Source of the DNA: a virus
Direction: 5' to 3' (one strand)
Virus record (IMG/VR): IMGVR_UViG_3300042878_001846
Span: 1-24,339 of that record
Length of the DNA: 24,339 bases
Below are positions 7,386 through 24,120 of the stretch, in pieces. Position 1 is the stretch's first letter, and each line of letters begins with the position of its first letter. Both the position numbers and the translations under genes were made by a program. The notes beneath the pieces are model-generated. The model saw nothing but the letters and a program-made list of their open reading frames with translations, had not been told where the DNA came from and made no database searches.

Positions 7386-8126
7386 ATGAAGACTGCGGTA
7401 TTAGTTTCAGGAATGTGTAGACAATTTGACATTGCGGTCAAGTCTTGGAAATTTTTGAATGACTTGGATTGTGATGTATATTTTTCGACTTGGAAAAAAT
7501 CAGTTCAATCGAGTAAAGTTTTAAACATGCACGTCGAAGAAGATATTACAGAAAACACTATCCTTGAACATATACCCACAGCAAAAATCAAAATTTATGA
7601 TGTCAATGATTTTGATTTTCCTGGAGACATATCTTATCATAATGACAAGCATCTTTTTTTAATGAAAAGTTCATTAAACATGATAAAAGAAAGTGGTGTT
7701 GAATATGATATGTTAATTGTGACAAGACCTGACAACTATTCATTTTACAATTATACACCCGAATTTTATTCCAACTTTGTCAATGAAGGAATTATTTATG
7801 GGCTTACTCCAATATACATCACAGGAAAACCTTCTAAAGAAATTTACTTTTTAGTAGAATATTTTTTTATGGGGGATTTCAAAACATTGTTTAATGTAAT
7901 TGATAGTCTTCCAACAACAATGCCTGGTAATATTCATACTGAATTCGCAAGAGAAATATTGAAGTTGGACTATTATGTTGTTCAATTACCCGATTTAGAT
8001 ATAAAATTAATAAGACCAAATGTGAGAGGATTAAAACCTGAAGAGATTAATAATGCTTCAGTTTTTGATAAATTCATGGATTGGGGACAAAATGAAGGAT
8101 TTAAAAGAAATAGAAATTTAATATGA
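7386..8126 (+). CDS. Putative glycosyltransferase-like protein ending in Asn-Leu-Ile
   Basis: A 246-residue soluble protein. It opens with a strand MKTAVLVSGMCRQF and DVYFSTWKKS, which resembles the start of viral and bacterial glycan-cluster proteins of the 'lisGq.R....s...W' type. The central strand MLIVTRPDNY has an acidic residue where GT-A enzymes keep their metal-binding Asp. There are no membrane segments. It is the only plus-strand protein with the exact Leu-Ile C-terminus seen throughout the minus-strand block (RNRNLI). It follows the palindromic gap, and its stop overlaps the next ATG in ATATGA. The glycosyltransferase role is a guess from fold-like motifs and context. Confidence 0.5.
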   Translation: MKTAVLVSGMCRQFDIAVKSWKFLNDLDCDVYFSTWKKSVQSSKVLNMHVEEDITENTILEHIPTAKIKIYDVNDFDFPGDISYHNDKHLFLMKSSLNMIKESGVEYDMLIVTRPDNYSFYNYTPEFYSNFVNEGIIYGLTPIYITGKPSKEIYFLVEYFFMGDFKTLFNVIDSLPTTMPGNIHTEFAREILKLDYYVVQLPDLDIKLIRPNVRGLKPEEINNASVFDKFMDWGQNEGFKRNRNLI

Positions 8127-11019: not shown

Positions 11020-11132
11020 AAAAAATTATTGATTGGTTCCTAAAAAAAATTAAGGAACGAAAAAGAAAAAAAGAATTAAAAAAGAAAATTGAAGAATTAA
11101 AGAAAAGAGATCCTTTTATTTACAACCATTAA
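11016..11132 (+). CDS. 38-residue basic amphipathic peptide following the carbamoyltransferase
   Basis: The ATG overlaps the carbamoyltransferase stop (ATGA), which is strong evidence for translation. The peptide opens MKKIIDWFLKKIKER, is about half Lys and Arg, forms a likely amphipathic helix and ends RDPFIYNH. Small proteins often follow carbamoyltransferase genes (for example the DUF5989 type), but the sequence does not obviously match that one. It could be a membrane-surface or nucleic-acid-associated helper. Its stop overlaps by 4 bases the stop of the converging SGNH gene. Confidence 0.65.
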   Translation: MKKIIDWFLKKIKERKRKKELKKKIEELKKRDPFIYNH

Positions 11133-11929
11133 ATCAAATTACTTGTGTAAGTTTGATTTTCATTTGGTAAATAATTTGGAAAGTTTGTTTCGATGTGGTT
11201 GAATAGTTTTTCGGCATATATTTTATTATGTATTGGTCCTGGATGACCTCCGTCTGTGCCATAATCTAAAAATGGATGAATAAAATATTCACCGTCGAAT
11301 CTATTAAATTCTTGGTATTCTTTAGGGATATTGAAACAACCATTCCACAACCAATTACATTTTTTAGACTCTAAAAATAATTTAATTATTAGATGATTTT
11401 TATACCAATTAATTAAATCTTCATTATCATTCTGAAGTTCTGTTAAATTATTTTGAATTTTTCTTCCCTCTTCAGTTTCTTTTAGGTAATTCCAAGAACT
11501 TCCTATTATAAATGGTTTGATTCCATTATTTTTTGTATACGCTTCACGCCTTTGTGGTGAAGTGTACATTATTAAAACTAAATCAGGTTTTATTAAATCA
11601 AAATAAGTCAACAAGCATCTGCTGATATAATCATTACTCTCACCTGAAGATGCTGAATTCAAATCTATTGCATTTGGTATCAATTTTGTAAATTGATGGG
11701 GCCATGTTTCGTTGTCATTTACACCGACCCCCTCTGTCAATGAACATCCGATTGACATAACCTTAAATCCTTTTTTATAGATTGAATCTCCTCTAAATCC
11801 TAATTCATTATAGGAATAGGTACAAAATCCACTTTCATCAGTGGCTAATTTGTTTTTTTTCTTTTTAAATCTGAAAATCAATGATGAGTTTTCAAACTCA
11901 TTAGGTGTCCAATATTTTAATGATTTCAT
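11129..11929 (-). CDS. SGNH-hydrolase-like protein, GCS-T-EGVG subfamily, copy 3
   Basis: A 266-residue protein, promoter-distal member of a tandem triplet. Block I is GCSLTEGVG (61-69), where the usual GDS is GCS; Ser is the expected nucleophile. The Gly block is SSGESNDYISR and the C-terminal DGGHPGP supplies the Asp and His. A family-specific YTSPQRRE stretch stands where the GxND block normally is. SGNH enzymes add or remove acyl groups on sugars or lipids, so the target could be an acylated glycan. The N-terminal 50 residues (SLKYWTPNEFE) are shared only with copies 1 and 2. It ends TSNLI. The start overlaps the upstream stop (TAATG). Confidence 0.75.
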   Translation of the reverse strand: MKSLKYWTPNEFENSSLIFRFKKKKNKLATDESGFCTYSYNELGFRGDSIYKKGFKVMSIGCSLTEGVGVNDNETWPHQFTKLIPNAIDLNSASSGESNDYISRCLLTYFDLIKPDLVLIMYTSPQRREAYTKNNGIKPFIIGSSWNYLKETEEGRKIQNNLTELQNDNEDLINWYKNHLIIKLFLESKKCNWLWNGCFNIPKEYQEFNRFDGEYFIHPFLDYGTDGGHPGPIHNKIYAEKLFNHIETNFPNYLPNENQTYTSNLI

Positions 11930-12711
11930 TATACTGTAACGTAATTTGGGAAATTGATTTGTATATGATTCATCAACTTTTCAGAATAAAGTTTATTATG
12001 TAGTGGCCCGGGATGCTTTCCTTCGGACCCCAAGTCGATTAATGGTTGCGTAAAATAATCTCCATCAAATCTATTTGGTTCAACGTACCCTTTAGGTATT
12101 TCAAAAGAACCATTCCACAACCAATTACAATTTTTGGATTCAAGAAACAATTTGATTATCTGATGGTTTTTAAACCAATTAATGAAGTCGGAATTTTCAT
12201 TTTGTAGTTCAACCAAAATATTTTGAATATTTTTTCCATCTTCAGTTTCCTCTAAATATCCCCAAGACATTGTTGGAATGAATGGTTCAATTCCGCCATT
12301 TTCGGTATATATTTCACGTCGTTGTGGAGAGGTATACATTATCAATACTAAATCAGGATTGATAATGTCATAATAGGTAATTAGAGACCTGCATATGTAA
12401 TCGTTACTTCTACCACCACATCCGAAATTAAAGTTAACCCCATTAGGAATCAATTGTGTAAATTGGTGAGGCCAAGTTTTATCATCATTTACACCAACTC
12501 CCTCTGTCAAGGAACATCCGATTGACATTACTTTGAATCCTTCTTTATTTATCGAATCACCTCTAAACCCTAATTCATTATATGTGTATGTACATAATCC
12601 AGTGTTGTCACTACCTGATGTATTAAACGTTTTATTTTTTCTTCCATCAAGTTGATACTTGTATGAAGAAATTTCAAATGTTTCAGGTTTCCAATAGTCA
12701 AGTGGGTTCAT
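11929..12711 (-). CDS. SGNH-hydrolase-like protein, GCS-T-EGVG subfamily, copy 2
   Basis: A 260-residue protein, clearly paralogous to its neighbours over the whole length. GCSLTEGVG is at 65-73, followed by WPHQFTQLIPN, GCGGRSNDYICRS, YTSPQRRE and a GKHPGP block with the catalytic-type His. Relative to the family it lacks a canonical GxND block. This copy is one of only three proteins of the 15-gene block that do not end in Leu-Ile or Ile-Ile (it ends YVTV). It stops short of the tail that the flanking copies carry after the common NFPNY/LPDY region. Start ATG at 12711; stop overlaps the ATG of copy 3. Confidence 0.75.
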   Translation of the reverse strand: MNPLDYWKPETFEISSYKYQLDGRKNKTFNTSGSDNTGLCTYTYNELGFRGDSINKEGFKVMSIGCSLTEGVGVNDDKTWPHQFTQLIPNGVNFNFGCGGRSNDYICRSLITYYDIINPDLVLIMYTSPQRREIYTENGGIEPFIPTMSWGYLEETEDGKNIQNILVELQNENSDFINWFKNHQIIKLFLESKNCNWLWNGSFEIPKGYVEPNRFDGDYFTQPLIDLGSEGKHPGPLHNKLYSEKLMNHIQINFPNYVTV

Positions 12712-12714
12712 CGA

Positions 12715-13527
12715 TTAAAATAATTTTTTATTATAAGATTGAGAATTATTTGATAAATAATCTGGTAAATTTTGATTTATGTAATTAAATAACTTGGTCA
12801 CGTATTCCTTATTATGTTTTGGGCCTGGATGGGAGTCGTCTTCACCTAAATCCATAAATGGTTCGTTCATATAATCTCCATCAAATCTATTAAATTCTTG
12901 ATAGTCTTCTTGTATACCAAAAGATCCATTCCAAACCCAATTACATTTTTTAGATTCTAAAAATAATTTAATTAGTAGATGATTTTTATACCAATTCATA
13001 AAATCGGAATGACGATTTTGCAGTTCAATCAAGTTATTACATATGTTTTTACCTTCATCAGTATCTCTTAAATATCCCCAACAAGGAGGTAGGAAAGGTT
13101 TCACACTATTGTGTTTCGTGTATACCTCACGTCTCTCTGGTGAAGTATACATTATCAAAACTAAATCAGGTTTGGCAATATCATAGTAACTCAACAAGGA
13201 ACGAACAATAAAATCATTGCTCCTTCCTCCACAACCAAAATTCAAATCAACACCATTTGGTATCATTTTTGTAAATTGGTGGGGCCAAGTTTCATGGTCG
13301 TTTATCCCAACCCCTTCAGTTAAAGAACATCCAATCGACATTATACGAAATCCTTTTTTATGGGTTGAATCTCCTCTGTATCCCAAATCATTATACGTGT
13401 AAGTACAAGATTTAGTTTTAGTACTTGTTGGAGACCTGAATTCTTTAACTCTTCTTTGACTATTGAGTTTGTATCTTAAAGACGAAATTTCAAATTCATT
13501 AGGGGACCAGTATTTTAATGATTCCAT
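12715..13527 (-). CDS. SGNH-hydrolase-like protein, GCS-T-EGVG subfamily, copy 1
   Basis: A 270-residue first member of the triplet. GCSLTEGVG is at 66-74, GCGGRSND at 98-105, and SHPGP with the candidate catalytic H233 near the end. It is alignable without large gaps to copies 2 and 3, with the strongest identity from GYRGDS through SPERREVY. The N-terminal 45 residues are more variable and basic. It ends KKLF, near the block's C-terminal pattern but not matching it. It begins 4 bases after the glycosyltransferase-like gene. Esterase or acyltransferase action on the glycan or on a virion protein is inference. Confidence 0.75.
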   Translation of the reverse strand: MESLKYWSPNEFEISSLRYKLNSQRRVKEFRSPTSTKTKSCTYTYNDLGYRGDSTHKKGFRIMSIGCSLTEGVGINDHETWPHQFTKMIPNGVDLNFGCGGRSNDFIVRSLLSYYDIAKPDLVLIMYTSPERREVYTKHNSVKPFLPPCWGYLRDTDEGKNICNNLIELQNRHSDFMNWYKNHLLIKLFLESKKCNWVWNGSFGIQEDYQEFNRFDGDYMNEPFMDLGEDDSHPGPKHNKEYVTKLFNYINQNLPDYLSNNSQSYNKKLF

Positions 13528-13531
13528 AATT

Positions 13532-14698
13532 TTAGATTAATGAATTGGGGTGTGATTTTTTTACAATTTCTTCGAGTCTGTCAAAGAAAAGTTTTTTACA
13601 TACTTCTTTACGAAATTGGTGATTTAAATATAATTCCCTATTGAATTGGCATATTTCCAAAACCTCTGGAGTGTTGTAAATTTTGGATAATTCAATCGCA
13701 GCATCCACAACGTGTTTCACTTTATTTTTTCCTGTCATATTATCATAATCCTCATTAATGACTGAATTGAAAGTTTGGAAACCCATATCTCGTAAATGTT
13801 TTAGGTGTCCTTTAGTTGCGGATACAACAAATGGTAATCCTAAATAAATTGATTTGTAAGTTTTCTCCGTGATATGTATTGCCTCGTCATATAACATGGT
13901 TTCAGTAATTATATCTACTTTACTCTTGTAGTACCATTCTGGATTAATTGTAAATAAGAATTCGTCGTGATATGATAATCTACTACCGTACATAACATCA
14001 CCTTCTAGTTGTATGGATTTGAACTCGAGACCATTTATTTTTAGTTTATAAGCCAAATCTAAATCAATTATTTTGAGAGGAGTGTAATTATCTACCCAAG
14101 TTAGCCGTGTTTCATCTAATAAACCTCTATTAAATAATTCTTCAATCATTTGATATTTGTGGTAAAATACCCTTCGATTTAAACATAAAAAATTTTTGTC
14201 AGGTTCTATTGTATTTTTTTTATTATTCTTATCAATATATTGGTTTAAATGATTATAAGTTGACAAGAAAAAGTGAGGGAAGAAAAATGTATTCAATGTG
14301 AAATTCTCATATTTCATTTTGTGTAAACCGATTTTTAAAGAATCATTTTTTACAAGAACCAATCTGTTGATGTCTATTCCATTGGATTTCAATTTATTTA
14401 AAAAGGACAAACTCAAGTTGTCAACTCTATTATGTGCTTCTCTTGAAAAATCAGCCATAAAGTAAAACTTTTTATCTTGAAGTTTTTTTAGTAAATCTAT
14501 GAATTCATCTGAAGTTGTGTATGTTGTGTATGGAAGTTTCGGACTGGTTTCCCAAACAAAAACTAGTAGGTTCAATTTGTTTGAATCGATTACGTCAGTA
14601 TCAACATTCTTGAATGAGATGTTTGTATCTATTTTTTCAAGCATTTCTTGAATGCCTGAACCTTTGAATGTATCTGTAAACCAAAAATCAATTTCCAT
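13532..14698 (-). CDS. Putative glycosyltransferase-like protein (TET/TEK motif family)
   Basis: A 388-residue protein. It has the clearest copy of the motif set shared with the proteins at 605 and 4404: NFLCLNRRVFYHKYQM (169-184), then IITET (263-267), ITEKTY (276-281), LPFVV and GFQTFNSVINEDYD. The spacing of TET and TEK and the following Leu-Pro-Phe strand resemble the donor-binding half of GT10-type and exostosin-type transferases. The N-terminal half (VFVWETSP, FYFMADFSREAHN) would be the acceptor-side Rossmann domain. No signal or membrane segment is seen. It ends HPNSLI, matching the C-terminal Leu-Ile pattern. It directly abuts the oxygenase upstream with no intervening base. Confidence 0.5.
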   Translation of the reverse strand: MEIDFWFTDTFKGSGIQEMLEKIDTNISFKNVDTDVIDSNKLNLLVFVWETSPKLPYTTYTTSDEFIDLLKKLQDKKFYFMADFSREAHNRVDNLSLSFLNKLKSNGIDINRLVLVKNDSLKIGLHKMKYENFTLNTFFFPHFFLSTYNHLNQYIDKNNKKNTIEPDKNFLCLNRRVFYHKYQMIEELFNRGLLDETRLTWVDNYTPLKIIDLDLAYKLKINGLEFKSIQLEGDVMYGSRLSYHDEFLFTINPEWYYKSKVDIITETMLYDEAIHITEKTYKSIYLGLPFVVSATKGHLKHLRDMGFQTFNSVINEDYDNMTGKNKVKHVVDAAIELSKIYNTPEVLEICQFNRELYLNHQFRKEVCKKLFFDRLEEIVKKSHPNSLI

Positions 14699-15196
14699 TT
14701 AAATTATTGTTTTTTTTGTTAAATGGTCTTTTTGTAAAAACCATAATAAAGAATATCTTTCACCATTCAATATTGGAGTTATTTCATGATCGATTCTTGT
14801 ATCGAATATGTATGTATTTCCAATTAATTTATTCAATGTATATTCATTAGGATTATATAATTTGAAATCACCACCTTCAAAATCATCATTTAACAAAACA
14901 CCAACTGCAAACATCCTATCATCTATCGAATCATTATGTTTTCCAAACCAATCACCTTCAACAAATTTATGAAAATGTATTTTATTTTTTATATAATTAA
15001 TTGTTAATTTTGTTTCGTCTTCAAAGAATTCTTTGAGTTTAAAAAATAACCATTTTGTATCCTCACTGTATACTATTTGTTGTGAAAAATATCTTCTGTC
15101 ACTTACGTATGAATGATTATTTACATTTTTAGTGTTATCCCAAACAATAGATTGACACTCTTCTTTACTAAATAATATTTTTTCCGTCAAAGTCAT
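14699..15196 (-). CDS. 2OG-Fe(II) oxygenase, prolyl-hydroxylase-like
   Basis: A 165-residue minimal double-stranded beta-helix oxygenase. The iron ligands are H87-N-D89 (GKHNDSIDD), the strand VGVLLNDDFEGGDFKLYN carries the GG turn, and the distal H137 (IDHEITPI) and R147 (GERYSLLWFL) complete the iron and 2-oxoglutarate site. It is closest in the window to the protein at 19678 (same HND pair and layout). Its first 29 bases overlap the sulfotransferase gene in another frame; the ATG at 15196 is kept because MTLTEKILFSKEECQSI gives a normal oxygenase N-terminus. It ends KKTII. Confidence 0.85.
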   Translation of the reverse strand: MTLTEKILFSKEECQSIVWDNTKNVNNHSYVSDRRYFSQQIVYSEDTKWLFFKLKEFFEDETKLTINYIKNKIHFHKFVEGDWFGKHNDSIDDRMFAVGVLLNDDFEGGDFKLYNPNEYTLNKLIGNTYIFDTRIDHEITPILNGERYSLLWFLQKDHLTKKTII

Positions 15197-15728
15197 GTAC
15201 TAAATTATGTGTGTCTTTTCTATATTTTTTATCATAACTAAGCATATCTAAATGTTTCGGATTGTATATATTTAAGTAATTCATTATCGATTCAAGGTGA
15301 GAGTTATCGATGTAGACATTTTCATATTTTATTTGTAATGTATTGAATTTATTTAGAATGGATTTCATGTAATCATATCTATTTTTTCTGAGTATTATTT
15401 CATTTTTATTTTCGAGAATCCAATTATTGGAAACTTCATAATCTACGTGCCAATAATTGCTGTTTCGAGCGACAATAAAACTTATGGCGGCTTCAACACT
15501 GTTTTCTCTAGTCAAACAAATTACTTTATCAAATTTGTTGATTATATAATTTGGTGGGATAAATTCTTCAATAACAATTTTTCTTATTATACTTGTTTTT
15601 TCAAAAACTGATAAAAAAGTTTTCTTATCATATGGAGTTTCATCCAATTCAATTTTTAATTCCTTCGATAACCACTTACATAAGTTAGTTGATCCACATC
15701 TTGTATGTGATAGAATTAAAATCCTCAT
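15168..15728 (-). CDS. Sulfotransferase-like protein
   Basis: A 186-residue protein from the ATG at 15728; a TTG one codon upstream is possible, but the ATG forms the usual TGATG overlap with the preceding stop. The N-terminus MRILILSHTRCGSTNL holds an RCGST loop (10-14) equivalent to the R.GST 5'-phosphosulfate-binding loop of PAPS-dependent sulfotransferases. LTRENSVEAAIS (72-83) fits the 3'-phosphate-binding R....A.S motif. It is short for the family, like many phage forms. It would sulfate a sugar or tyrosine. It ends GKNII, and its last 29 bases are reused as the start of the oxygenase gene. Confidence 0.75.
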   Translation of the reverse strand: MRILILSHTRCGSTNLCKWLSKELKIELDETPYDKKTFLSVFEKTSIIRKIVIEEFIPPNYIINKFDKVICLTRENSVEAAISFIVARNSNYWHVDYEVSNNWILENKNEIILRKNRYDYMKSILNKFNTLQIKYENVYIDNSHLESIMNYLNIYNPKHLDMLSYDKKYRKDTHNLVHDFDGKNII

Positions 15729-16777
15729 CAAATTAAAGTTTTGGATTTATCACTAAATTCATACAAATTATGAAACATGTATTTATTCTTACTTACTTTA
15801 CTGAATTCCTTTACGAATAATTCATGGTCAGGGTGAGACACATTCCAAACTTGTTTCAAATTGAATTCCTCATCACTAAATGTTCCCCAATTAGTTATTT
15901 TACCAAAAAATACTGCAACTTTTTTTCCAAAAATAGAATGCATTATATTATAAAATAACTCCATTTCCATGTAGTTTGAATCTTGTACTACAAATGATGT
16001 TTTAATATACTTCAAACTTGGTATTGTATTTATGAAATTTAAATTTTCTATCAGATTATCCCATTTTCCTCCTAATCTTGTTTTGTTTTCGTAAGTATCT
16101 TTTGTTCCTGCGTCTATACTAATCTCACAACTTTTAACGTATTTGTGTACATTTGGCATACTATCCCACATTTCTTTATTCCACATTGATGCGTTAGTAT
16201 GAAAATGAATGGACTTTAATTTGGGATATTTTTTTGGGTCAAAATTTCTTAAATAGTTTCTGAATCCAACTGATATGAAAGGGTCACCAGACCCTGTTAT
16301 GTACAATGTCTTAACGTCTTTGGAGTAAAAGGAGTCTATCTCTTCTATTGTTTTTTCTATTCGTTGTATCCCTTTTTTATCCTCAACAATCAAATCTACT
16401 CTACAAGATGGACATTTGTAATTACAAGTCCTATCAAAATTCATTACTAAGACTTTTGGACCCTCACTCAAAATTGGAGATTTAGGAGTCGATTCAGTTT
16501 TTAATTGAAGGGGACCAGATACCTCACCGAAGTTTATGAGTTTACTCAAATATGGGCATAATTCTTTATCACAGTATTTGAACGATCCGTCAATTATTGA
16601 ATCCCGAATATCAATCATCGGTTCACTATTCCAAACTTCTTTTAATGGGATTTCTGATGTTTCTATTTTGTTCGGAAGCCAAGATGGACAGCAGGCAAAA
16701 CAGACCTTAGTGTGTATTTCCAAGTTCTTGAATGGAACTGAACAAAAATAATTTTTTAAATCTATTTCGGGTTTCAT
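15728..16777 (-). CDS. Radical SAM protein with N-terminal SPASM-like cysteine domain
   Basis: A 349-residue protein. The 4Fe-4S radical SAM motif is C118-N-Y-K-C122-P-S-C125 in the order CX3CX2C. TGSGDPF (161-167) follows as the SAM-binding GGE-like segment. Before it, residues 12-74 contain C12, C26, C29, C30, C69 and C74 with EVWNS between them. This looks like the auxiliary-cluster SPASM region moved to the N-terminus, a layout known in glycan-cluster radical SAM proteins. Such enzymes modify peptides or sugars (epimerisation, dehydrogenation, C-C bonds). No obvious small precursor peptide lies beside it apart from the 50-residue ORF at 21216. It ends SKTLI. Confidence 0.85.
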   Translation of the reverse strand: MKPEIDLKNYFCSVPFKNLEIHTKVCFACCPSWLPNKIETSEIPLKEVWNSEPMIDIRDSIIDGSFKYCDKELCPYLSKLINFGEVSGPLQLKTESTPKSPILSEGPKVLVMNFDRTCNYKCPSCRVDLIVEDKKGIQRIEKTIEEIDSFYSKDVKTLYITGSGDPFISVGFRNYLRNFDPKKYPKLKSIHFHTNASMWNKEMWDSMPNVHKYVKSCEISIDAGTKDTYENKTRLGGKWDNLIENLNFINTIPSLKYIKTSFVVQDSNYMEMELFYNIMHSIFGKKVAVFFGKITNWGTFSDEEFNLKQVWNVSHPDHELFVKEFSKVSKNKYMFHNLYEFSDKSKTLI

Positions 16778-16812
16778 CTATTTTAATAATAATACATTTT
16801 TTAATTTTATCA

Positions 16813-17637
16813 TTAGATAGGTAATTTTACTTTATTTAGATTTTTTAATATTGGATATCCATCCCATTTTGATTCAAAAAAATTCGGAGTCGTTTCCGAA
16901 ATTAATTCCGGTTCATTTTCTTTTATCCAATTATATAACCTAGTGGAAATATATTCATATCCAATCTCATTTGGATGATCACAAACAAGCGATTTCATAT
17001 TTGAATTTTCTTTTAAATTTGGAAAAATAGATTGGTTGAACTTCATCATGTGGTTTATATTATGGAATTTCTCAAAAAAAATGTTTTGTTGGAAATTGAT
17101 TGGAGTATACAAGAATTTATATTTTTTAGAAATACAATGTTCCTCCATAATTTTGATATAAAAGATTTGTTCTAAAATTGGATCTATATCCAAGTTGTCG
17201 ATGAAATTCAAATATTCTTTTCCAATGTCATAACTATATACATTATAAACATTTTTTTCCATCAATGGATTTATATTCATAACCGTGGAATCTCTATAAA
17301 ACGAAAACCGAGTCGGAGAGGGGAGTAACCAAAGGAGTAAAACATCAAACTCGTCAGAAAAATTTTTATCATAATATTTTTCAAACCAAACTTTTACATT
17401 ACCCGAGGTAGATGAACCTCCAAAACCTAAGTTGATTAAAATATCATAATTGAGCTGTTTTTGAAGATATGAAGGCCAAGAATATTTGTGAAATCTTTCC
17501 TTACTAATATAATAAACTTCTTCTGTTTTTTTATACTTTATTTTACCCCCAACTTTGTATGAGACAACTTCAGGGTCATAACACCCAACTCCTTCTGTAA
17601 AAGAACAACCCATTGTAATCAAAAGTTTTTTTTTCAT
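16813..17637 (-). CDS. SGNH-hydrolase-like protein, GCS-T-EGVG subfamily, divergent member
   Basis: A 274-residue protein. GCSFTEGVG is at residues 10-18, preceded by a strand (KKKLLITM), so this copy lacks the 50-residue N-terminal extension of the triplet at 11129-13527. LGFGGSSTSGN is the Gly block and CDHPNEIGYEYI gives the C-terminal Asp-x-x-x-His-like site. Similarity to the triplet is confined to these blocks and a shared LLLWLLPSPTR segment that corresponds to LIMYTSPQRR. It ends KVKLPI, a near match to the Leu-Ile C-terminus. The start overlaps the upstream stop (ATATGA), and 35 A/T-rich bases separate it from the radical SAM gene. Confidence 0.7.
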   Translation of the reverse strand: MKKKLLITMGCSFTEGVGCYDPEVVSYKVGGKIKYKKTEEVYYISKERFHKYSWPSYLQKQLNYDILINLGFGGSSTSGNVKVWFEKYYDKNFSDEFDVLLLWLLPSPTRFSFYRDSTVMNINPLMEKNVYNVYSYDIGKEYLNFIDNLDIDPILEQIFYIKIMEEHCISKKYKFLYTPINFQQNIFFEKFHNINHMMKFNQSIFPNLKENSNMKSLVCDHPNEIGYEYISTRLYNWIKENEPELISETTPNFFESKWDGYPILKNLNKVKLPI

Positions 17638-18080
17638 ATAAGGGTATTTTTTTTTACATTCATAGGGTTATTATTCATGAATCCAACTAATGTGTATCTG
17701 TTTCCGATACAATTATTTACTTTGTGAATTTCTTCTCCTGAAAAGTAAATCATTTCTCCAATTTTGGGTTTATACTCAGTATTATCAAAAATTACTTCAC
17801 CCCCTGTGAAATTGTCATTAAGGAAAATTATAAAAGACCATGGATTGACGTGTCGATGTGGAATTATTGACTGGTTTATTGATTCGTTAAGCACTTGAAC
17901 TCGAAACTTTTTGAATATGAAAGTTGAAAATTTTTCGATTGGTAATTTTTTATTCATTAAATCAATAAAGTAAAACTTGTATATTTCGTCATCACAATAT
18001 CCATTAATATTTTCATCATATAAATTTGTAAAGTATTCACATTCTAAAGGATTTAAAAAATCTTCATAACAAACAATCAT
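17634..18080 (-). CDS. 2OG-Fe(II) oxygenase-like protein with HxH motif (tandem copy 2)
   Basis: A 148-residue protein closely paralogous to the neighbour at 18088. The usual HxD is H75-R-H77 (PHRHVNPWSF), followed by IIFLNDNFTGGEVIFD with the GG turn, the distal H119 (GEEIHKVNN) and R128 (GNRYTLVGF). Replacement of the iron-binding Asp by His is shared by its tandem sister, so it is not a sequencing artefact. The protein is complete with normal spacing and is probably an active or metal-binding jelly-roll. It ends KKNTLI. Seven A/T-rich bases separate it from the upstream gene. Confidence 0.8.
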   Translation of the reverse strand: MIVCYEDFLNPLECEYFTNLYDENINGYCDDEIYKFYFIDLMNKKLPIEKFSTFIFKKFRVQVLNESINQSIIPHRHVNPWSFIIFLNDNFTGGEVIFDNTEYKPKIGEMIYFSGEEIHKVNNCIGNRYTLVGFMNNNPMNVKKNTLI

Positions 18081-18087
18081 AGTAAAT

Positions 18088-18564
18088 TCAAATTAATTTT
18101 CCTGTTTTTATGTTTAAAGGATTATTCAACATTCCCCCAATTAATGTATATCTATCCCCAATACAGTTGTTTAGTTTGTGTCGTTCTTCTCCAGAAAAAT
18201 AAGCCATATCCCCTGTTTTGGGTTTATATTCAACAGTATCAAAAATTAGTTCCCCACCTGTAAAATTTTCATTCAGGAAAATAACAAACGACCAAGGATT
18301 GACATGAGTATGTGGAGATTTACATTGGTCTATAGATTCGTTTACCATTTGTATTCTTAATTTTTTGAAAATATAATTTGGAAATTTGTCAGTTTCAAAT
18401 TTATTTTCTGTCAAGTCGAGATAATAAAATTTTAGTACATCATCATCACCAAATTTATTATACGTCTGAATCCATTCCATAAATTCTACATCATTTGATT
18501 TAAACAAATTAATATAATATTCACATTCAGAATTATTCAAAAAGTTGGGTATGTAAATTATCAT
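18088..18564 (-). CDS. 2OG-Fe(II) oxygenase-like protein with HxH motif (tandem copy 1)
   Basis: A 158-residue protein. The iron motif is H85-T-H87 (PHTHVNPWSF), with VIFLNENFTGGELIFD, distal H129 (GEERHKLNN) and R138 (GDRYTLIGG). It opens MIIYIPNFLNNSECEYYINLF, a standard prolyl-hydroxylase-type first helix. It is alignable end to end with the protein at 17634, which lacks about ten residues of the loop around residue 30. It ends KTGKLI. It occupies the third position in the second copy of the SET / HxH oxygenase / oxygenase cassette. Confidence 0.8.
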   Translation of the reverse strand: MIIYIPNFLNNSECEYYINLFKSNDVEFMEWIQTYNKFGDDDVLKFYYLDLTENKFETDKFPNYIFKKLRIQMVNESIDQCKSPHTHVNPWSFVIFLNENFTGGELIFDTVEYKPKTGDMAYFSGEERHKLNNCIGDRYTLIGGMLNNPLNIKTGKLI

Positions 18565-18569
18565 ATCTA

Positions 18570-19124
18570 TTATATCAATACGGTATTTAATAAAAATTCT
18601 GAAGAAATATTTCCTGCAATAACAACCCTATCAATAGTTGATGTTGGTGTGTGTGTTGGAACATGCCATAAATATCCGGGGAAAAAAATGATTTCACCTT
18701 CTTTTGGGGTTATTGTAAGAACGGAATCATTATTATCTTTGATTAATAAATTACCTTCTCCGTTCTCCAAATTGGGGGGTATTTGTACATAGAAAACAAA
18801 TGTGTAATCAGTTTTTAATTGGGTTCTACCTCCATCTAATTTTGAGTGAGTGTGCCATATATAATTTGATGGAGGTAAATCTTTTGTTTGAATATAGGAC
18901 CACATACTGATTGCATAATCTACATGTCCACATTTTTTCAATTCGAAATATTGATTCACGACAAAATTTTTGATAGATTCAAATTCTCTACAAAAAAACA
19001 TCAGTTCATCTGTGTTTTGGGATGTATTACCGTTTGGTTGTTTCAGTAGGGATTTATTTTTATAAATTTTTTGAAGTATGTCTTCTTTATTAAACTCCCA
19101 ATTGTATTTTACATGATGTGTCAT
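18570..19124 (-). CDS. 2OG-Fe(II) oxygenase, TIGR02466/2OG-FeII_Oxy_5-like
   Basis: A 184-residue protein. MWSYIQTK.....YIWHTHSKL holds the family-type H91-x-H93, followed by TDYTFVFYVQIPPNLENGEG, a PGYLWHVPTHTP strand with the distal H154, and R166 in DRVVIAGNI. This arrangement (W....Q....H.H....G.YY...P) is the one used by the TIGR02466 oxygenases common in marine phages. It is paralogous to the protein at 20190: the YTF.FYVQ.P.NL and RVV.AGNI segments are nearly identical. It ends NTVLI. Its leader repeats that of the SET gene at 19144. Confidence 0.8.
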   Translation of the reverse strand: MTHHVKYNWEFNKEDILQKIYKNKSLLKQPNGNTSQNTDELMFFCREFESIKNFVVNQYFELKKCGHVDYAISMWSYIQTKDLPPSNYIWHTHSKLDGGRTQLKTDYTFVFYVQIPPNLENGEGNLLIKDNNDSVLTITPKEGEIIFFPGYLWHVPTHTPTSTIDRVVIAGNISSEFLLNTVLI

Positions 19125-19138
19125 TTTTTTTGATAGGG
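19118..19138 (-). repeat. Leader repeat, copy in front of the oxygenase at 18570
   Basis: Read on the minus strand the element is CCCTATCAA, an A-run, then ATGACAC. It includes the start codon. The same string with a two-base CG insertion precedes the unrelated SET gene (19611-19634). It may be a translation-initiation or transcription element. Confidence 0.45.
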
Positions 19139-19143
19139 AGTTT

Positions 19144-19617
19144 CTATATCAAGTTTTTCGGAGTAATCTTGAATTCTGAACCGTAGTTGGATAATAGTTC
19201 TTCACCACTATATATCTTTCGTACTGTTATTGGGTTAGTATGATTAATTGTATCGACATTGTTATTATTCAATCCACTATTAATAAAAGTTTTTGGCCAA
19301 ATATATATCCAATGACACCCTTTTTCTAATGGAAAGAAAATTTTACCGTACTCTTTTTCTATGTATTGTTCTTGGTTTTCTTTGTCAATATAAAATAATT
19401 TATTGTCAAAAGTTCCTAACATTGTTTTTTGTAATTCCATCGGTAATTGAGATAATTCGTTGTGGTCTATAGAATATATTCCACTTTCATCAAGCCAAGG
19501 ATTAAATATTGATTCACCAATTTCAATATCTCTAACTGCGAAAAATCCAACTCCGTGAATACGACTTGGCTTTAGCACACTCACTACATGATTTTTTATA
19601 TATTCAAATGGTGTCAT
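19144..19617 (-). CDS. SET-domain protein methyltransferase-like, copy 2
   Basis: A 157-residue compact SET protein. PSRIHGVGFFAVRDI (17-31) is the S.ihG.G.FA..dI opening strand. FINSG (111-115) stands where the knotted NHSC.PN motif normally lies. SGEELLSNYG (137-146) is the GEEL...Y block with the catalytic Tyr. SET enzymes transfer methyl from SAM to lysine, so a protein substrate is expected. It is shorter than eukaryotic SET domains and lacks pre/post-SET cysteines. It is paralogous to the protein at 20779, with shared YIKN, LKPS, GCHWI and GEELLSNY. It ends TPKNLI. Nineteen bases separate it from the next gene. Confidence 0.8.
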   Translation of the reverse strand: MTPFEYIKNHVVSVLKPSRIHGVGFFAVRDIEIGESIFNPWLDESGIYSIDHNELSQLPMELQKTMLGTFDNKLFYIDKENQEQYIEKEYGKIFFPLEKGCHWIYIWPKTFINSGLNNNNVDTINHTNPITVRKIYSGEELLSNYGSEFKITPKNLI

Positions 19618-19634
19618 TTTTTTCGTTGATAGGA
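19611..19634 (-). repeat. Leader repeat, copy in front of the SET gene at 19144
   Basis: On the minus strand it reads TCCTATCAACG, an A-run, then ATGACAC. It matches the leader of the oxygenase at 18570 except for the inserted CG. It sits at the downstream end of a 60-base gap (19618-19677) that is otherwise A/T-rich with no visible gene or terminator. Confidence 0.45.
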
Positions 19635-19677
19635 TTTTTTATTTTGTGTTAATTAATCCACTATTAATATAAATTTT

Positions 19678-20181
19678 TTATATAATTTTATTATTTGTTT
19701 TATGAACAACATCTTCGTGAGTTATAAACATTACAACACTTCTTCGGGTTCCACTAGTGACGATTTTTACTTCGTGGTCTCTATTGGCTTCAAAAACATA
19801 AGGAACCCCGATTTCTTTGGTGATAATGTATTTCGGATTATAAACAATGTACTCTCCTCCAGTATAGTCATCATTCAAATGAAATCCAGTAACCAAATAT
19901 CTATTTTTGCCAAAAGCGTGACGGTATTTAATATCGTCATCATTATGACGTAGAAAAAAATCATTTGTGTCGTACCGTAAAATCTGAAATTTCTGATTCG
20001 AAGAGTGGAATTTCAAATTCAAATGTTCTGAGACCCAATTTAACAACTTAATTTTTATAGGGAAAATGACTTCTGATTCAATAATTTTGACCTCATAACT
20101 TCTATCTCTTTTTCGGAACTCGTTTAAGTCATGAAAAAGATTTTCTACTAATGATATTTCTTCTGATGTTATTAATTTCAT
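19678..20181 (-). CDS. 2OG-Fe(II) oxygenase, prolyl-hydroxylase-like
   Basis: I use the ATG at 20181 (167 residues, MKLITSEEISLVENLF) rather than a TTG four codons upstream that would overlap the preceding stop. H79-N-D81 (RHNDDDI) is a canonical HxD pair, GFHLNDDYTGGEYIVYNP carries the GG turn, and H136 (RDHEVKIV) with the Arg of GTRRSVVMFI completes the site. It is closest to the protein at 14699 and is the third gene of the first SET / HxH oxygenase / oxygenase cassette. It ends NNKII. Confidence 0.85.
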   Translation of the reverse strand: MKLITSEEISLVENLFHDLNEFRKRDRSYEVKIIESEVIFPIKIKLLNWVSEHLNLKFHSSNQKFQILRYDTNDFFLRHNDDDIKYRHAFGKNRYLVTGFHLNDDYTGGEYIVYNPKYIITKEIGVPYVFEANRDHEVKIVTSGTRRSVVMFITHEDVVHKTNNKII

Positions 20182-20189
20182 TAGTATAA

Positions 20190-20777
20190 TCAAATTAGAT
20201 TAAGATTGTTAGGAGTTTTATTCAAAAAGTTATACGCGATGTTTCCCGCATATACTACCCTTAATTCGTCATTTTTCGGGGTTGGTATTGCAGTATGATA
20301 CATATCCGCAGGAAAAATGAATAAATCCATCTCATTAGGTAAAAATTTATGAATATTTCCGTCTTTAGTTCTAAAAACTATTTTCCCTTCATCCTGTACT
20401 AAATTCTTCGGTTGTTGAACATAAAATGTGAAAGTATAATCAGATTTAATAGTTGATCTATTTGTACTTGAGTGTAAAAGGAGATGTTGGTGCATATACG
20501 TCATATCAAAACCTTTTTTTTGTGTGTACACCCAAGAATGTTTTGCGTAATAATCAAATTTACTCCCAATAATTTCTTGTTCAATCAAATTTATTATTAA
20601 AGAATCAATCGATTGAAATTCAGCACATTCAAATTCAATCCAAACAGAATTGTCATTCGGAATTGTGCTAATTTGTTTGTTTTGTGCAAATCTGAATAGA
20701 AAATCATTTTTAGTAAATAATCCATCGTATCTACTTTTGTAAACAAATTCATTTTCTCCGATTTGTATTTTTTCCAT
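20190..20777 (-). CDS. 2OG-Fe(II) oxygenase, TIGR02466/2OG-FeII_Oxy_5-like
   Basis: A 195-residue paralogue of the protein at 18570. YAKHSWVYTQKK leads into MHQHLLLHS with H96-x-H98, then SDYTFTFYVQQPKNL, FPADMYHTAIPTP with the distal H161, and R173 in LRVVYAGNIAYNFL. It is complete with normal order of elements. Second gene of the first cassette, one base after the SET gene stop. It ends LNLI. The substrate is unknown; in T4-like marine phages related proteins are proposed to hydroxylate nucleobases or proteins, but nothing here distinguishes these. Confidence 0.8.
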   Translation of the reverse strand: MEKIQIGENEFVYKSRYDGLFTKNDFLFRFAQNKQISTIPNDNSVWIEFECAEFQSIDSLIINLIEQEIIGSKFDYYAKHSWVYTQKKGFDMTYMHQHLLLHSSTNRSTIKSDYTFTFYVQQPKNLVQDEGKIVFRTKDGNIHKFLPNEMDLFIFPADMYHTAIPTPKNDELRVVYAGNIAYNFLNKTPNNLNLI

Positions 20778-20778
20778 A

Positions 20779-21219
20779 TTATATTAAGTTGTTCTTCTCT
20801 AATTTTTCATATCTTGGATAGTTGCTAAGCAACTCTTCTCCTTTTCGTATGAAACGTAAGGATTTCATCGTATCTTTGTCTACGTTCGACTTTTTTTCGT
20901 AAATTCCGCTGTTTATAAAATAATATGGATTTGTAAAAATCCAATGGCAACCATTCGTAAGTTTCACATAAATGTTAGTATCATTAGGAAAATCAGAGGA
21001 ATAAATAAAAATTTCTTTAATATGATTTGAGACTTCATAGTCCAATTCATTTAACTGATTTTGAGTAATTGGGAAGTATCCAGTTTCCCCTGACCAATTT
21101 TCGAATAAAAAAATATCGTGAGGAATGTCTTTGATTGCAAAAACACCTATCCCTGAAATATTACTCGGTTTCAACTTTACAAAAACACAATTTTTTATGT
21201 AATTGTATGCGTCTATCAT
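20779..21219 (-). CDS. SET-domain protein methyltransferase-like, copy 1
   Basis: A 146-residue protein. PSNISGIGVFAIKDI (18-32), GCHWIFTNPYYFINSG (90-105) and KGEELLSNY (126-134) match the SET core as in the copy at 19144. The NHSC.PN motif is likewise reduced to FINSG in both, so this is a subfamily trait and not decay. Lysine methylation of a phage or host protein is the expected role. The ATG overlaps the stop of the 50-residue ORF (ATGA). It ends EKNNLI. Confidence 0.8.
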   Translation of the reverse strand: MIDAYNYIKNCVFVKLKPSNISGIGVFAIKDIPHDIFLFENWSGETGYFPITQNQLNELDYEVSNHIKEIFIYSSDFPNDTNIYVKLTNGCHWIFTNPYYFINSGIYEKKSNVDKDTMKSLRFIRKGEELLSNYPRYEKLEKNNLI

Positions 21220-21368
21220 AAATGTTTATTTATAAATAATTCGAAAAATTTACTAATTACATTCTCAACTCTTTGTTTTTCAGTATTTGATAATTGAGAT
21301 GTTGTTCTGTTTTTAACTTCCGTTAATGGTTTTTTTTTGTATAATAGAGGGTGTTTTGAAGTATCCAT
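21216..21368 (-). CDS. 50-residue hypothetical protein
   Basis: The ORF begins MDTSKHPLLYKKKPLTEVKN 10 bases after the Hint protein stop and ends FINKHL, its stop overlapping the SET gene start (TTATGA). This tight coupling, together with a Lys-rich, Thr/Ser-rich N-half and a helical C-half (QRVENVISKFFELF), supports a real gene. It has no Leu-Ile terminus and no recognised domain. It could be a substrate or adaptor of the following modification enzymes, but nothing beyond position supports this. Confidence 0.55.
   Translation of the reverse strand: MDTSKHPLLYKKKPLTEVKNRTTSQLSNTEKQRVENVISKFFELFINKHL
21226..21239. promoter_or_regulatory. 14-bp perfect palindrome containing T4-late-type TATAAATA on both strands
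   Basis: TTATTTATAAATAA reads TATAAATA on either strand. TATAAATA is the core of T4-like late promoters. The minus-strand copy lies 7 bases ahead of the SET gene ATG at 21219, which would give an almost leaderless transcript. It also lies within the coding region of the 50-residue ORF (Phe-Ile-Asn-Lys). It may be chance in AT-rich DNA. Confidence 0.3.
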
Positions 21369-21378
21369 TTTCTTAAAT

Positions 21379-24120
21379 TTATTTGTTATGTACTAAAATT
21401 TTATTTGCGTAAAAATTGTGATTATCTTCTACAGAAATGATATATGTTTGAGTATCAGTTCGACTTAATTCGATTATAGATTCAATTTTCACAGTTTCAT
21501 TGTCAGATAGATTTACAAAATCACCAATTTTAATTTCGATTACATTAGAAGGTAAATCGTATTTTTCATTAGTCCAATCTGGTCTATAAGATGCAAGTTT
21601 CAAGCCATTAACGTAATACGGGTGGTCAAAGGTTGAAGTAATTCGAATCCCATTTGATAAAGTGTATTCTACTAAATCATCATGTATTGGTTTGAAAGTG
21701 TTTGTTACTTTTTTAAGTTCCTGAGATTTTTTTTCTTCGTTATACGATAGTACTACATCTCCGATTTGTATATCTTCTATGTTTTTTTCAATATTGTCTT
21801 CTACCAAAATTTTTGTTCCTGCTATGAAACAAAATTTGTTGTGAGTCAGAATTCCGTTTGCAAAAAAGTTATGATTATTCGATACTTCAAATATGTAAGT
21901 TTGTGTTGGGGTTAATTCCAATTCTTCAATATTAACAATTCTTGTATTGGAACCATCAACTAAAGTTACACTATCTCCGATTTCTATTTGTGAAACATTT
22001 TCTCCCAGATTGTATCTATCAATTGTTAATAAAGGTTTATAAGATGATAAATTAAACCCATTTACAAAATACGGATGGTCGAAAGTACAAATTAATTCAG
22101 TTCCGTTTTCAAATGAATATCTTACCATATCATCATGAATCGGTGTAATTACATTTGTAACTTTTTGTTTCTCTTTAGTATTGTTTGGAATATTCAGTGA
22201 AATGACTTCATCTCCAACACTAATTTCTTCGATTGGCTTGACTGTCCCATCAGACATTTCAATCATGGTTCCTTTAACAAAACAAGCTCGGTTATGTACC
22301 AATATATCATTTGCGAAATAATTGTGGTTTATCTCGATTTTAGATAGATTGTAAACTTTAGTTTCTTCGTTCAATAATGTAACCTTTTCTAAAACTGCAT
22401 TGGTGTTGATAAGTTTCACAGAATCCCCGATTTCAATTTTTTGTACTGGTGTATCTAATTGATATAGGTTGTTAGACAATACATTGTCAAACGCAGACCA
22501 TCCTTTACCGTTCACAAAAATTGGATGGTCTAATGTGGATTTTAAAATACCTCCATTACTAAACTCATAGATTACTATTTTATCTACTTTTTTGGAAAAT
22601 ATATTTAAAACTTTATTGATTTTTGTTTCATCATTTGTGAAGTCGAATGAAACAATTGAATCCCCCACGACAACATCTTCAATATTTTTTGTTGTACCAT
22701 TCTCCATTTGAATTTTGGTTCCTGCGACAAAACAAGGTGCGTTGGCAGAGACAATACTGTGGAAGGCGGTGGATCCATTTATAATGTATGTATCCGAATC
22801 TTCAACATCTAATTCAACAAAAGATAAACCACTTTCTGACGACACATAAAAGTTTAATTCATCAACTTGAACTAATTCTCCATTCAAATCGTAAAGATAA
22901 TCTGTGATTGCGTTGATTTCGACAATGTATTTATAACTACTTTTGTTTGTTATACTGTTGTATACTAAATATTTTTTATTAATTCCTGAAAACAAAGAAT
23001 CACTATCTACCACCATTTCCATCATAGAGTTATATTTTAGATTTGCGACATCTTTGAAAACTACACTCGAAGTTGTTAGGAAAGACCCCTCAGGAAATTC
23101 ACTACCCTCGTAGTTCCAAGTTAATGAGTTCAAATCAGACTCACTTTGAGGTGATCCACTGATGGAATAAGATTGGATGTCATTACCAACTTGAATATTG
23201 GAAATTTCTTCCCAAGTTTCGTCCGCCATCAAAACTTCATGTGTAGATAAGATACCTGCCGAATCATTTTTAAACATGTTTGTTGCAAATTCGTAAAAAT
23301 GATAATCCTTTATCTTATTTGAATTTTCTTCTAAATCGATTGAAGTCGGTAGTTCAAATATTGAACTTATTTTGTAGCTGTGTAAAGGAAGAATATCCAA
23401 ATTAGACCCATATACTATTGAAAAAAATCTGATAGACGTAACGTGGTTGTTTTCATCTAAAGTAGATGAATGAAAATGGTATTGTTCAATTAGAGTATCT
23501 TCAGTAGATTTATCTTGAATAAAATTATCCCAATTTTCTTCAACCGTCCCGTTGTCAACATTTATTTTGTGAAAATCAATTGGATTAAATGATTCATAAA
23601 TGTCTTTTATTGTGGCATCTGGTATATTAGACGCATTTACCTCTTTAGTCAATGTGTCAAAAGTCCCCAAAGGTGAAGAATGATAATATCCAACACAATA
23701 GTCCGTAATTGAATCTTCGGTGAATAAGTTATACACATTCAATCTATTTTTACAATACACACTGTCAAATATTGCAGTTTCGTCGTACGCTAATCTTAAA
23801 ATGAACTTATCTTCAGCGTCAGGAACTGATGTTGGGTAGATTGAATTAATATTTTCATCATGTAAATTTATTGTGGTTACTGATGGTAAATTAGTATTAA
23901 CTTCATCAACAAGTTTATTAACAAAATCTATGTGTAAAAATGGCTTATAGATAATGTCTAAAGTTGTGATGTTGTTTGACGATAATACTGATAAAAATCC
24001 ACTAAAGTCAAAATTCACCAATTCTTGATCGATAAACCCAGTATCCGTATTTAACTCTAATAATCTTAAGTTTCCGTTCGAGTCTTTAACGAAATCTGCC
24101 GAGAATAATGTTCCTTTCAT
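21379..24120 (-). CDS. Large protein with three C-terminal Hint (intein-like) domains, probable virion protein
   Basis: A 913-residue protein. The ATG at 24120 is preceded in frame by a stop four codons upstream, so the N-terminus is real. Residues 3-30 (GTLFSADF, RLLELNTDTGF) resemble the metal-binding hairpin of ATP-grasp proteins, and similar starts occur in large marine phage structural proteins as far as I recall. Residues 40-285 are acidic, beta-rich and unassigned. Residues about 291-460 look like a degenerate Hint module. Then three complete Hint modules follow, at 463-610, 613-761 and 764-912. Each has Cys1, a T-x-x-H block and a final His-Asn. The protein ends one residue after the last Asn. 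No signal peptide or membrane helix. It likely self-cleaves. It heads the minus-strand gene string. Confidence 0.8.
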   Translation of the reverse strand: MKGTLFSADFVKDSNGNLRLLELNTDTGFIDQELVNFDFSGFLSVLSSNNITTLDIIYKPFLHIDFVNKLVDEVNTNLPSVTTINLHDENINSIYPTSVPDAEDKFILRLAYDETAIFDSVYCKNRLNVYNLFTEDSITDYCVGYYHSSPLGTFDTLTKEVNASNIPDATIKDIYESFNPIDFHKINVDNGTVEENWDNFIQDKSTEDTLIEQYHFHSSTLDENNHVTSIRFFSIVYGSNLDILPLHSYKISSIFELPTSIDLEENSNKIKDYHFYEFATNMFKNDSAGILSTHEVLMADETWEEISNIQVGNDIQSYSISGSPQSESDLNSLTWNYEGSEFPEGSFLTTSSVVFKDVANLKYNSMMEMVVDSDSLFSGINKKYLVYNSITNKSSYKYIVEINAITDYLYDLNGELVQVDELNFYVSSESGLSFVELDVEDSDTYIINGSTAFHSIVSANAPCFVAGTKIQMENGTTKNIEDVVVGDSIVSFDFTNDETKINKVLNIFSKKVDKIVIYEFSNGGILKSTLDHPIFVNGKGWSAFDNVLSNNLYQLDTPVQKIEIGDSVKLINTNAVLEKVTLLNEETKVYNLSKIEINHNYFANDILVHNRACFVKGTMIEMSDGTVKPIEEISVGDEVISLNIPNNTKEKQKVTNVITPIHDDMVRYSFENGTELICTFDHPYFVNGFNLSSYKPLLTIDRYNLGENVSQIEIGDSVTLVDGSNTRIVNIEELELTPTQTYIFEVSNNHNFFANGILTHNKFCFIAGTKILVEDNIEKNIEDIQIGDVVLSYNEEKKSQELKKVTNTFKPIHDDLVEYTLSNGIRITSTFDHPYYVNGLKLASYRPDWTNEKYDLPSNVIEIKIGDFVNLSDNETVKIESIIELSRTDTQTYIISVEDNHNFYANKILVHNK
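21385..21831 (-). other. Hint domain 3 (residues 764-912)
   Basis: Starts at Cys764 (CFIAGTKI), has STFDHP with Thr and His in the block-B spacing, and ends HNFYANKILVHN at Asn912. Only Lys913 follows before the stop, so C-terminal cleavage by Asn cyclisation would release a single residue, and N-terminal cleavage at Cys764 would free the domain. Confidence 0.85.
21838..22284 (-). other. Hint domain 2 (residues 613-761)
   Basis: Starts at Cys613 (CFVKGTMI), with CTFDHPYFVNG as block B, and ends NHNFFANGILTHN at Asn761. It is followed by Lys-Phe and then the Cys of domain 3. The +1 residue is Lys, not Cys, Ser or Thr, so protein splicing is not expected; cleavage is. Confidence 0.85.
22291..22734 (-). 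other. Hint domain 1 (residues 463-610)
   Basis: Starts at Cys463 (CFVAGTKI), with STLDHPIFVNG as block B, and ends INHNYFANDILVHN at Asn610. It is followed by Arg-Ala and the Cys of domain 2. All residues needed for the N-to-S acyl shift and Asn cyclisation are present, and the +1 residue is Arg. Confidence 0.85.
22741..23250 (-). other. Degenerate Hint-like module (residues about 291-460)
   Basis: STHEVLMADETWEEISNIQVGNDIQSY aligns position for position with the CF..GTKI.M.dGT.K.IE.I.VGD.V.SY opening of the true Hint domains (longest match ETWEEISNIQVGNDIQ). Ser replaces Cys1, and no T-x-x-H or final His-Asn is visible. It reads as an ancient fourth copy that lost activity and gained an insert. 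Confidence 0.5.

Follow-up and report, generated by a model that had tools for sequence, protein, structure and literature searches.

The complete 24,339-base IMG/VR virus record IMGVR_UViG_3300042878_001846, hereafter the window, carries on its minus strand an operon with two distinctive features: at its head lies a gene for a large protein combining ATP-grasp-like and Hint domains, and the genes that follow encode predicted modification enzymes and other proteins that mostly end in the same two residues (Table 1). A simple rule that takes the longest open reading frame (ORF) gives 15 ORFs on the minus strand between 21219 and 11129; 12 of them end exactly in Leu-Ile or Ile-Ile, and the other three in LPI, KLF and VTV. 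At a background rate of ~1.3% for [LI]I ends, obtained from the cyanophages P-SSM2 and S-CAM7 and from core genes of related phages, the binomial probability of at least 12 such ends in 15 is ~1e-20. On the plus strand the only [LI]I end is that of 7386-8126 (RNRNLI). An earlier sequence-only reading of the window had reported these same 12 ends, a 13th in PI and the 246-residue RNRNLI protein as the sole plus-strand bearer, and the listing of ORF ends agrees with it throughout. The tag consensus is a K-rich stretch followed by [KTNS]-[LI]-I-COOH; the motif is broader than first noted, with the K-rich part at positions -4 to -7 and a terminal [LIF][ILF]. In close relatives of the window the tag is found on either strand and also at other sites in the genome.

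Table 1. Genes of the window that bear on the C-terminal tag, with their C-terminal residues and the basis of each assignment
Coordinates	Strand	Product	C-terminus	Basis
21379..24120	-	Operon-head protein, 913 residues; ATP-grasp-like and Hint domains	VHNK	Pfam, AlphaFold2, Foldseek
21216..21368	-	50-residue ORF between partner gene and first tagged SET gene	NKHL	ORF call
20779..21219	-	SET-family protein	NNLI (tag)	Alignment A2 with SET protein 19144-19617
20190..20777	-	2-oxoglutarate (2OG)-Fe(II) oxygenase family (cluster 8)	LNLI (tag)	Same family as 18570-19124
19678..20193	-	2OG-Fe(II) oxygenase	NKII (tag)	PF13640, E 8e-7
19144..19617	-	SET-domain protein	KNLI (tag)	PF00856, E 6e-5
18570..19124	-	2OG-Fe(II) oxygenase	TVLI (tag)	phrog_81, E 5e-14
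18088..18564	-	2OG-type protein	GKLI (tag)	Paralogue of 17634-18080
17634..18080	-	2OG-type protein	NTLI (tag)	PHROG matches
16813..17637	-	SGNH-like protein	KLPI (degenerate)	GCSFTEG motif only
15728..16777	-	Radical SAM enzyme	SKTLI (tag, after variable linker)	PF04055, alignment A5
15168..15731	-	Sulfotransferase-like protein	GKNII (tag)	Relative L003:3285-3848; weak PF09037, E 0.004
14699..15196	-	2OG-Fe(II) oxygenase	KTII (tag)	PF13640, E 8e-7
13532..14698	-	388-residue protein; no Pfam or PHROG match	NSLI (tag)	Same broad cluster as plus-strand 4380-5606 family
12715..13527	-	SGNH-like protein	KKLF (variant tag)	Alignment A3; relatives QKLF, QKLL
11929..12711	-	Untagged SGNH-like paralogue	NYVTV	A3: subgroup stops at fold end
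11129..11929	-	SGNH-like protein	SNLI (tag, after variable extension)	Alignment A3
7386..8126	+	246-residue protein	RNLI (tag)	Relatives DRNLI, DKSLI
4380..5606	+	408-residue protein	NSLR	Two close relatives NSLI

Five protein queries against viral contigs supplied relatives of the window, and three longer contigs were read through in pieces. C-terminal statistics cover the first four scans, with 190 viral loci and 2,192 non-redundant ORFs. Across this set terminal LI is found 277 times against 15 expected (18-fold), II 108 times against 15 (7-fold) and LL 93 times against 15. When proteins are grouped into families by single-linkage BLAST clustering, the tag is present on at least 12 families, mostly of unrelated fold: these include 2OG oxygenases, SET proteins, radical SAM enzymes, sulfotransferase-like and SGNH-like proteins (two labels based on motifs or weak Pfam matches), methyltransferases and a Zn-finger protein. 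The tagged share reaches 94% in the radical SAM family, 87% and 83% in two 2OG families, 87% in the sulfotransferase-like family, 100% and 88% in the SET families, 83% in the methyltransferases and 77% in a small Zn-finger/DUF6171-like protein; it is 42-66% in the SGNH-like families and 41% in the broad cluster that contains the 408-residue protein.

The frequency is far from equal among genes of the same genomes. Only 2% of the nucleotide-sugar epimerases are tagged, as are 3 of 173 core genes of the lineage. A 203-residue family represented in the window by 3175-3786, which is presumably 2OG-like judging from its sequence and lies inside the nucleotide-sugar gene block, has no tagged member among 16; hence, tagging tracks context and not fold alone. 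In 140 kb of P-SSM2 and S-CAM7 just 2 of 179 ORFs end in [LI]I, though these regions are rich in 2OG enzymes and carbamoyltransferases. The 18-fold enrichment together with the core-gene and cyanophage controls rules out chance and composition as the cause of the tag.

The tail has the character of an extension added beyond the folded domain. In the radical SAM alignment (A5) a conserved HNLxEF segment closes the domain, and LI follows after a linker whose length varies; in the AlphaFold2 model of the window's own enzyme residues 345-349 have a predicted local distance difference test score (pLDDT) below 50, the rest of the model being confident. A search for homologues in unrelated genomes recovered 63 cellular radical SAM proteins from bacteria and archaea, none with an [LI]I end. 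A caveat is that most of those genomes exceed the phages in GC content, but even among flanking genes of 35-45% GC such ends make up only 1.2%. One of these cellular homologues (L260) terminates at the equivalent of the fold end. It is the lack of the tag in cellular homologues, the variable linker and the predicted disorder that lead us to regard the tail as added. The SGNH-like alignment (A3) has the same form: the fold ends at a common point, where untagged members stop and beyond which tagged ones continue.

Several features place the constraint on the peptide. Lys is 3- to 5.5-fold enriched at positions -4 to -7 of tagged genes, position -3 favours Lys, Thr, Asn or Ser, and Gly, Ala, Val, Trp and the acidic residues are depleted in the tails. 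In the large 2OG and sulfotransferase-like families (clusters 1 and 6), taken whole and without preselection for the tag, each of the two final positions holds 2.0-2.8 bits, as against ~0.3-0.6 at positions -6 to -12. The terminal Leu and Ile codons and the stops vary as the sequence-only reading had described: 25 of the 27 possible [LI]I codon pairs are in use with Leu codons at background usage, TAA, TAG and TGA all serve as stops, and no nucleotide motif was seen downstream of tagged stops. The use of nearly all codon pairs and the lack of such a motif imply that selection acts on the peptide, as that reading had also proposed. Terminal ATA is mildly over-used (65% vs 48%) and TGA stops are commoner in tagged genes, both of which fit ATGA stop-start overlaps, the probable source of the ATA excess; yet a nucleotide-level cause, in which translational coupling, a promoter or a junction sequence happens to encode Leu-Ile, is very improbable in view of the codon pairs, the three stops, the missing motif and the selection likewise evident on the preceding Lys, Asn, Thr or Ser, and none of its three forms explains the tag. 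We consider it almost certain that this is a functional peptide tag.

Variation among relatives provides further detail. The plus-strand gene 4380-5606 ends in TTA AGA TGA, and since two close relatives of its product end in NSLI the window has probably lost the tag there by a single-base change, AGA replacing ATA. The terminal codons of 17634-18080 are CTT ATA in the window and CTC ATA or TTA ATA in relatives; relatives of 16813-17637 end in KIPI, TFI and SSI. The ORF at the position of 21216-21368 ends in AKHL or NKHL in relatives. The plus strand also encodes a C-methyltransferase (8123-9352, +), whose relatives end in NNL or DNI, and a 555-residue protein (9352-11019, +), which we take from its sequence to be a carbamoyltransferase and whose relatives end in KIL: these ends are possible relaxed forms of the tag. 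The accessory region of one relative also encodes an untagged 697-residue protein with a radical SAM PHROG match (L020:11219-13312, G001), which ends in NEN.

A tag shared by so many enzymes suggests a common reader, and the family of the operon-head ATP-grasp-Hint protein, hereafter the partner, is by location and co-occurrence its likely candidate. With loci de-duplicated on the partner protein, 34 distinct partner loci have [LIF][ILF] ends in 205 of 325 genes downstream of the partner (+1 to +11) and in 55 of 206 upstream (Fisher p 2e-16), and ~69 of 73 distinct partner loci have at least three [LIF][ILF] genes nearby. On contigs of at least 40 kb, 188 of 777 genes in the sampled locus are tagged where the partner is present and 9 of 173 where it is absent, the median tagged share being 24% with it and 2.6% without (Mann-Whitney p 5e-5, an indicative value, as these contigs are fragmentary, include some near-duplicates and were listed by hand). 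Among the untagged families the partner is the best separator of the two kinds of loci and the only common one restricted to the tag-rich kind: 76% of tag-rich loci have it, as against 0% of those poor in tags. Within a locus the choice between terminal I and L also varies less than expected (permutation p 0.0025), which is what a single genome-specific reader would produce. A collection of cultured phages yielded no partner homologue, nor did 39 cellular genomes with untagged radical SAM relatives, beyond one match to a 37-residue fragment.

The partner of the window consists of an ATP-grasp-like region (residues ~1-285), a Hint region resembling bacterial intein-like (BIL) domains (~286-455) and three further Hint modules (~462-912). 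YgiC and the eukaryotic-type glutathione synthetases are circularly permuted ATP-grasp enzymes. An AlphaFold2 model of residues 1-455 (pLDDT 85.9) retrieves BIL structures in Foldseek searches (6y75/2lwy, E 5e-8 to 1e-6) as well as YgiC (7uk8, E 1e-4) and a glutathione synthetase-like protein (5oeu, E 5.5e-4). Because the Hint/intein matches to Pfam and hidden Markov models fall at ~residues 284-421, the latter matches are placed in the first half: residues 1-285 are predicted to form a circularly permuted ATP-grasp-like domain, with global template modelling (TM) scores that are low, ~0.3. D9, E22, N24, T25, R109, D113, K172 and R231 are invariant in an alignment of 37 sequences (A6), and the D/E.NT pattern is kept in relatives of ~25-36% identity. 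Partner proteins as a family are far more acidic than the other proteins of these loci (0.9th percentile), and the tags are basic.

The family combines a conserved N-terminal part of ~450 residues with a variable C-terminus. In many relatives the Hint domain ends in EHN or MHN and a hypervariable tail follows; 28 of them have a mean of 6.7 Cys in the last 60 residues as against 0.4 per 60 elsewhere, and a distant subfamily (L311-L347) has a strongly patterned Cys-rich tail (MHN-SCWCPWNYCGHWCNSWYCPGC...), the protein often ending in K-[LI]. The window's partner has the three further Hint modules (residues ~462-913) in place of such a tail. Each begins with Cys and ends in His-Asn, with two-residue spacers (RA, KF), an unusual architecture that possibly points to polyprotein self-processing. 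By inspection, the first Hint domain has Ala instead of the N-terminal Cys; it ends in SAN, while the close relatives L181 and L042 have SHN and the tandem modules HN. A-type BIL domains have a conserved C-terminal His-Asn, occur in hypervariable proteins and cleave at the Asn without ligation (PMC7765530); therefore, release of the partner's C-terminal peptide by the same reaction is plausible by analogy.

The mechanism that we favour as the simplest, and to which we give roughly even chances, is the following: the K-rich linker and [KTNS]-[LI]-I-COOH would be a docking tag that draws unrelated modification enzymes to one partner, the operon-head protein, in a modification complex centred on it. 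The C-terminus of the partner (the Cys-rich tail in relatives, the Hint modules here) would be the substrate of these enzymes, and new enzymes would enter the system by gaining the short tail. The larger picture is more tentative and, on our assessment, somewhat less probable: a phage system in which an ATP-grasp-Hint protein would release its own variable C-terminal peptide, this peptide being modified by a swappable set of enzymes whose K-rich [LI]I tags the ATP-grasp domain would either read or use covalently. That a short C-terminal peptide on many unrelated enzymes serves a probable common partner was the central proposal of the sequence-only reading, and it has withstood the three refutation tests that this reading set: tag frequency across genes, tails of homologues from unrelated genomes and conservation at the nucleotide level. 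As to the partner, that reading made no choice and listed the Hint protein among those to be tried.

Some observations weigh against docking on the partner. Most partner loci have their tags downstream, but in the distant subfamily, brought in by a further scan with the partner profile, tags lie on both sides (133 of 259 genes upstream, 161 of 275 downstream) and the contrast is not significant, so that function is not set by position alone. Tens of kilobases separate some tagged genes from the partner gene, and there are four partner-negative contigs of at least 40 kb with two tagged genes, although these contigs are perhaps incomplete. Shared ancestry or composition could partly account for the uniformity of terminal I and L, the window's own partner has no Cys-rich tail, and the binding itself is inferred, not observed.

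Three other roles for the tag are each unlikely. As a degron, the basic and hydrophobic C-terminus would be recognized by ClpXP, FtsH, Tsp or another such protease of the host, making the enzymes short-lived. In favour of this, phage MuA ends in RRKKAI, a C-terminal signal for ClpX (PMC8138137), the C-terminal tripeptide LPF can by itself act as a ClpXP degron (PMC5143411), and the tag consensus is likewise basic and then hydrophobic. A degron would not, however, lead one to expect the association with a single phage gene family, nor the near-complete tagging of one operon in a genome whose nucleotide-sugar and core genes are untagged. Equally improbable is a role in packaging or virion attachment, whereby tagged enzymes would be loaded into or assembled on the virion and the partner would be a virion protein. 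Virus-derived encapsulins load their cargo via C-terminal peptides, and Hint domains are found in phage structural proteins (a phrog_38766 match); but the N-terminal half of the partner resembles an ATP-grasp ligase rather than a structural fold, many different enzymes would need to be packaged, and no virion protein was identified as a reader. Marginally behind these comes covalent tagging: an active ATP-grasp domain would ligate something to or through the tag carboxylate, the tail being a substrate and not only a dock. ATP-grasp enzymes activate carboxylates, and the invariance of D9, E22, N24 and T25, the D/E.NT pattern of distant relatives and the structural neighbours glutathione synthetase and YgiC all favour this; on the other side, ATP-grasp activity is putative and the TM scores are low.

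Elsewhere in the window, the sugar block includes two short plus-strand genes (3790-4419 and 5603-6142) that match PF00676 (E1 dehydrogenase/thiamine pyrophosphate (TPP)-binding) and, weakly, PF02779 (transketolase pyrimidine-binding), and that apparently encode a split TPP enzyme. Among cultured phages there were no matches for the 388-residue, SGNH-like and 408-residue proteins or for the two lineage core proteins tried, and for a 2OG protein there were matches in just eight phages, covering half of the protein.

The shared modification machine proposed to lie behind the tag would be previously undescribed: in the open-access literature neither the tag nor a phage protein joining ATP-grasp and Hint domains was found. 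Comparable logic is seen in C-terminal targeting by peroxisomal targeting signal 1 (PTS1), encapsulin cargo peptides and PDZ ligands, where a few end residues on unrelated enzymes likewise bring these to a common partner; the present tag differs in sequence, phage setting and linkage to the ATP-grasp-Hint protein, and no shell, peroxisome or PDZ protein turned up, though no search was aimed at them. The clusters for ribosomally synthesized and post-translationally modified peptides (RiPPs), including proteusins, similarly place genes for radical SAM, 2OG and methyltransferase enzymes next to one whose product has a long, conserved leader-like part and a variable, Cys-rich end. The Cys-tailed relatives resemble this arrangement of conserved leader and variable core beside modification enzymes; however, recognition here is seemingly via a tag on every enzyme and not via the leader peptide, and we do not file the system with RiPPs or proteusins because the protein of the window itself has Hint modules at its end and no Cys-rich core. 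With A-type BIL domains the partner shares the Hint fold and the His-Asn preceding a hypervariable C-terminus (PMC7765530), but its first Hint domain has no N-terminal Cys and is fused to an ATP-grasp-like domain. With YgiC and eukaryotic glutathione synthetase it shares the predicted fold and the invariant D...E.N pattern, but it is fused to Hint and was found here only in uncultivated phages. Modification clusters of P-SSM2-type cyanophages comprise carbamoyltransferases, 2OG enzymes and methyltransferases (PMC7824862), similar enzyme classes in phage accessory regions, but have no tag by the count given above. The C-motif 2 of MuA that is recognized by ClpX likewise has basic residues before a hydrophobic C-terminus, whereas the end here is [LI]I and is confined to genes of a single functional set, which is linked to a single family of phage proteins.

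If the docking tag is real, these phages would possess a plug-in code by which any enzyme could be brought to a shared substrate, much as in peroxisomal or encapsulin targeting but in a virus. The tag would then give a simple rule for spotting members of the system among unannotated phage genes, and the two-residue handle is directly testable and perhaps usable in engineered enzyme assembly. The system as a whole would point to a product made by the phage, which could be a Cys-rich peptide carrying modifications or a surface protein.

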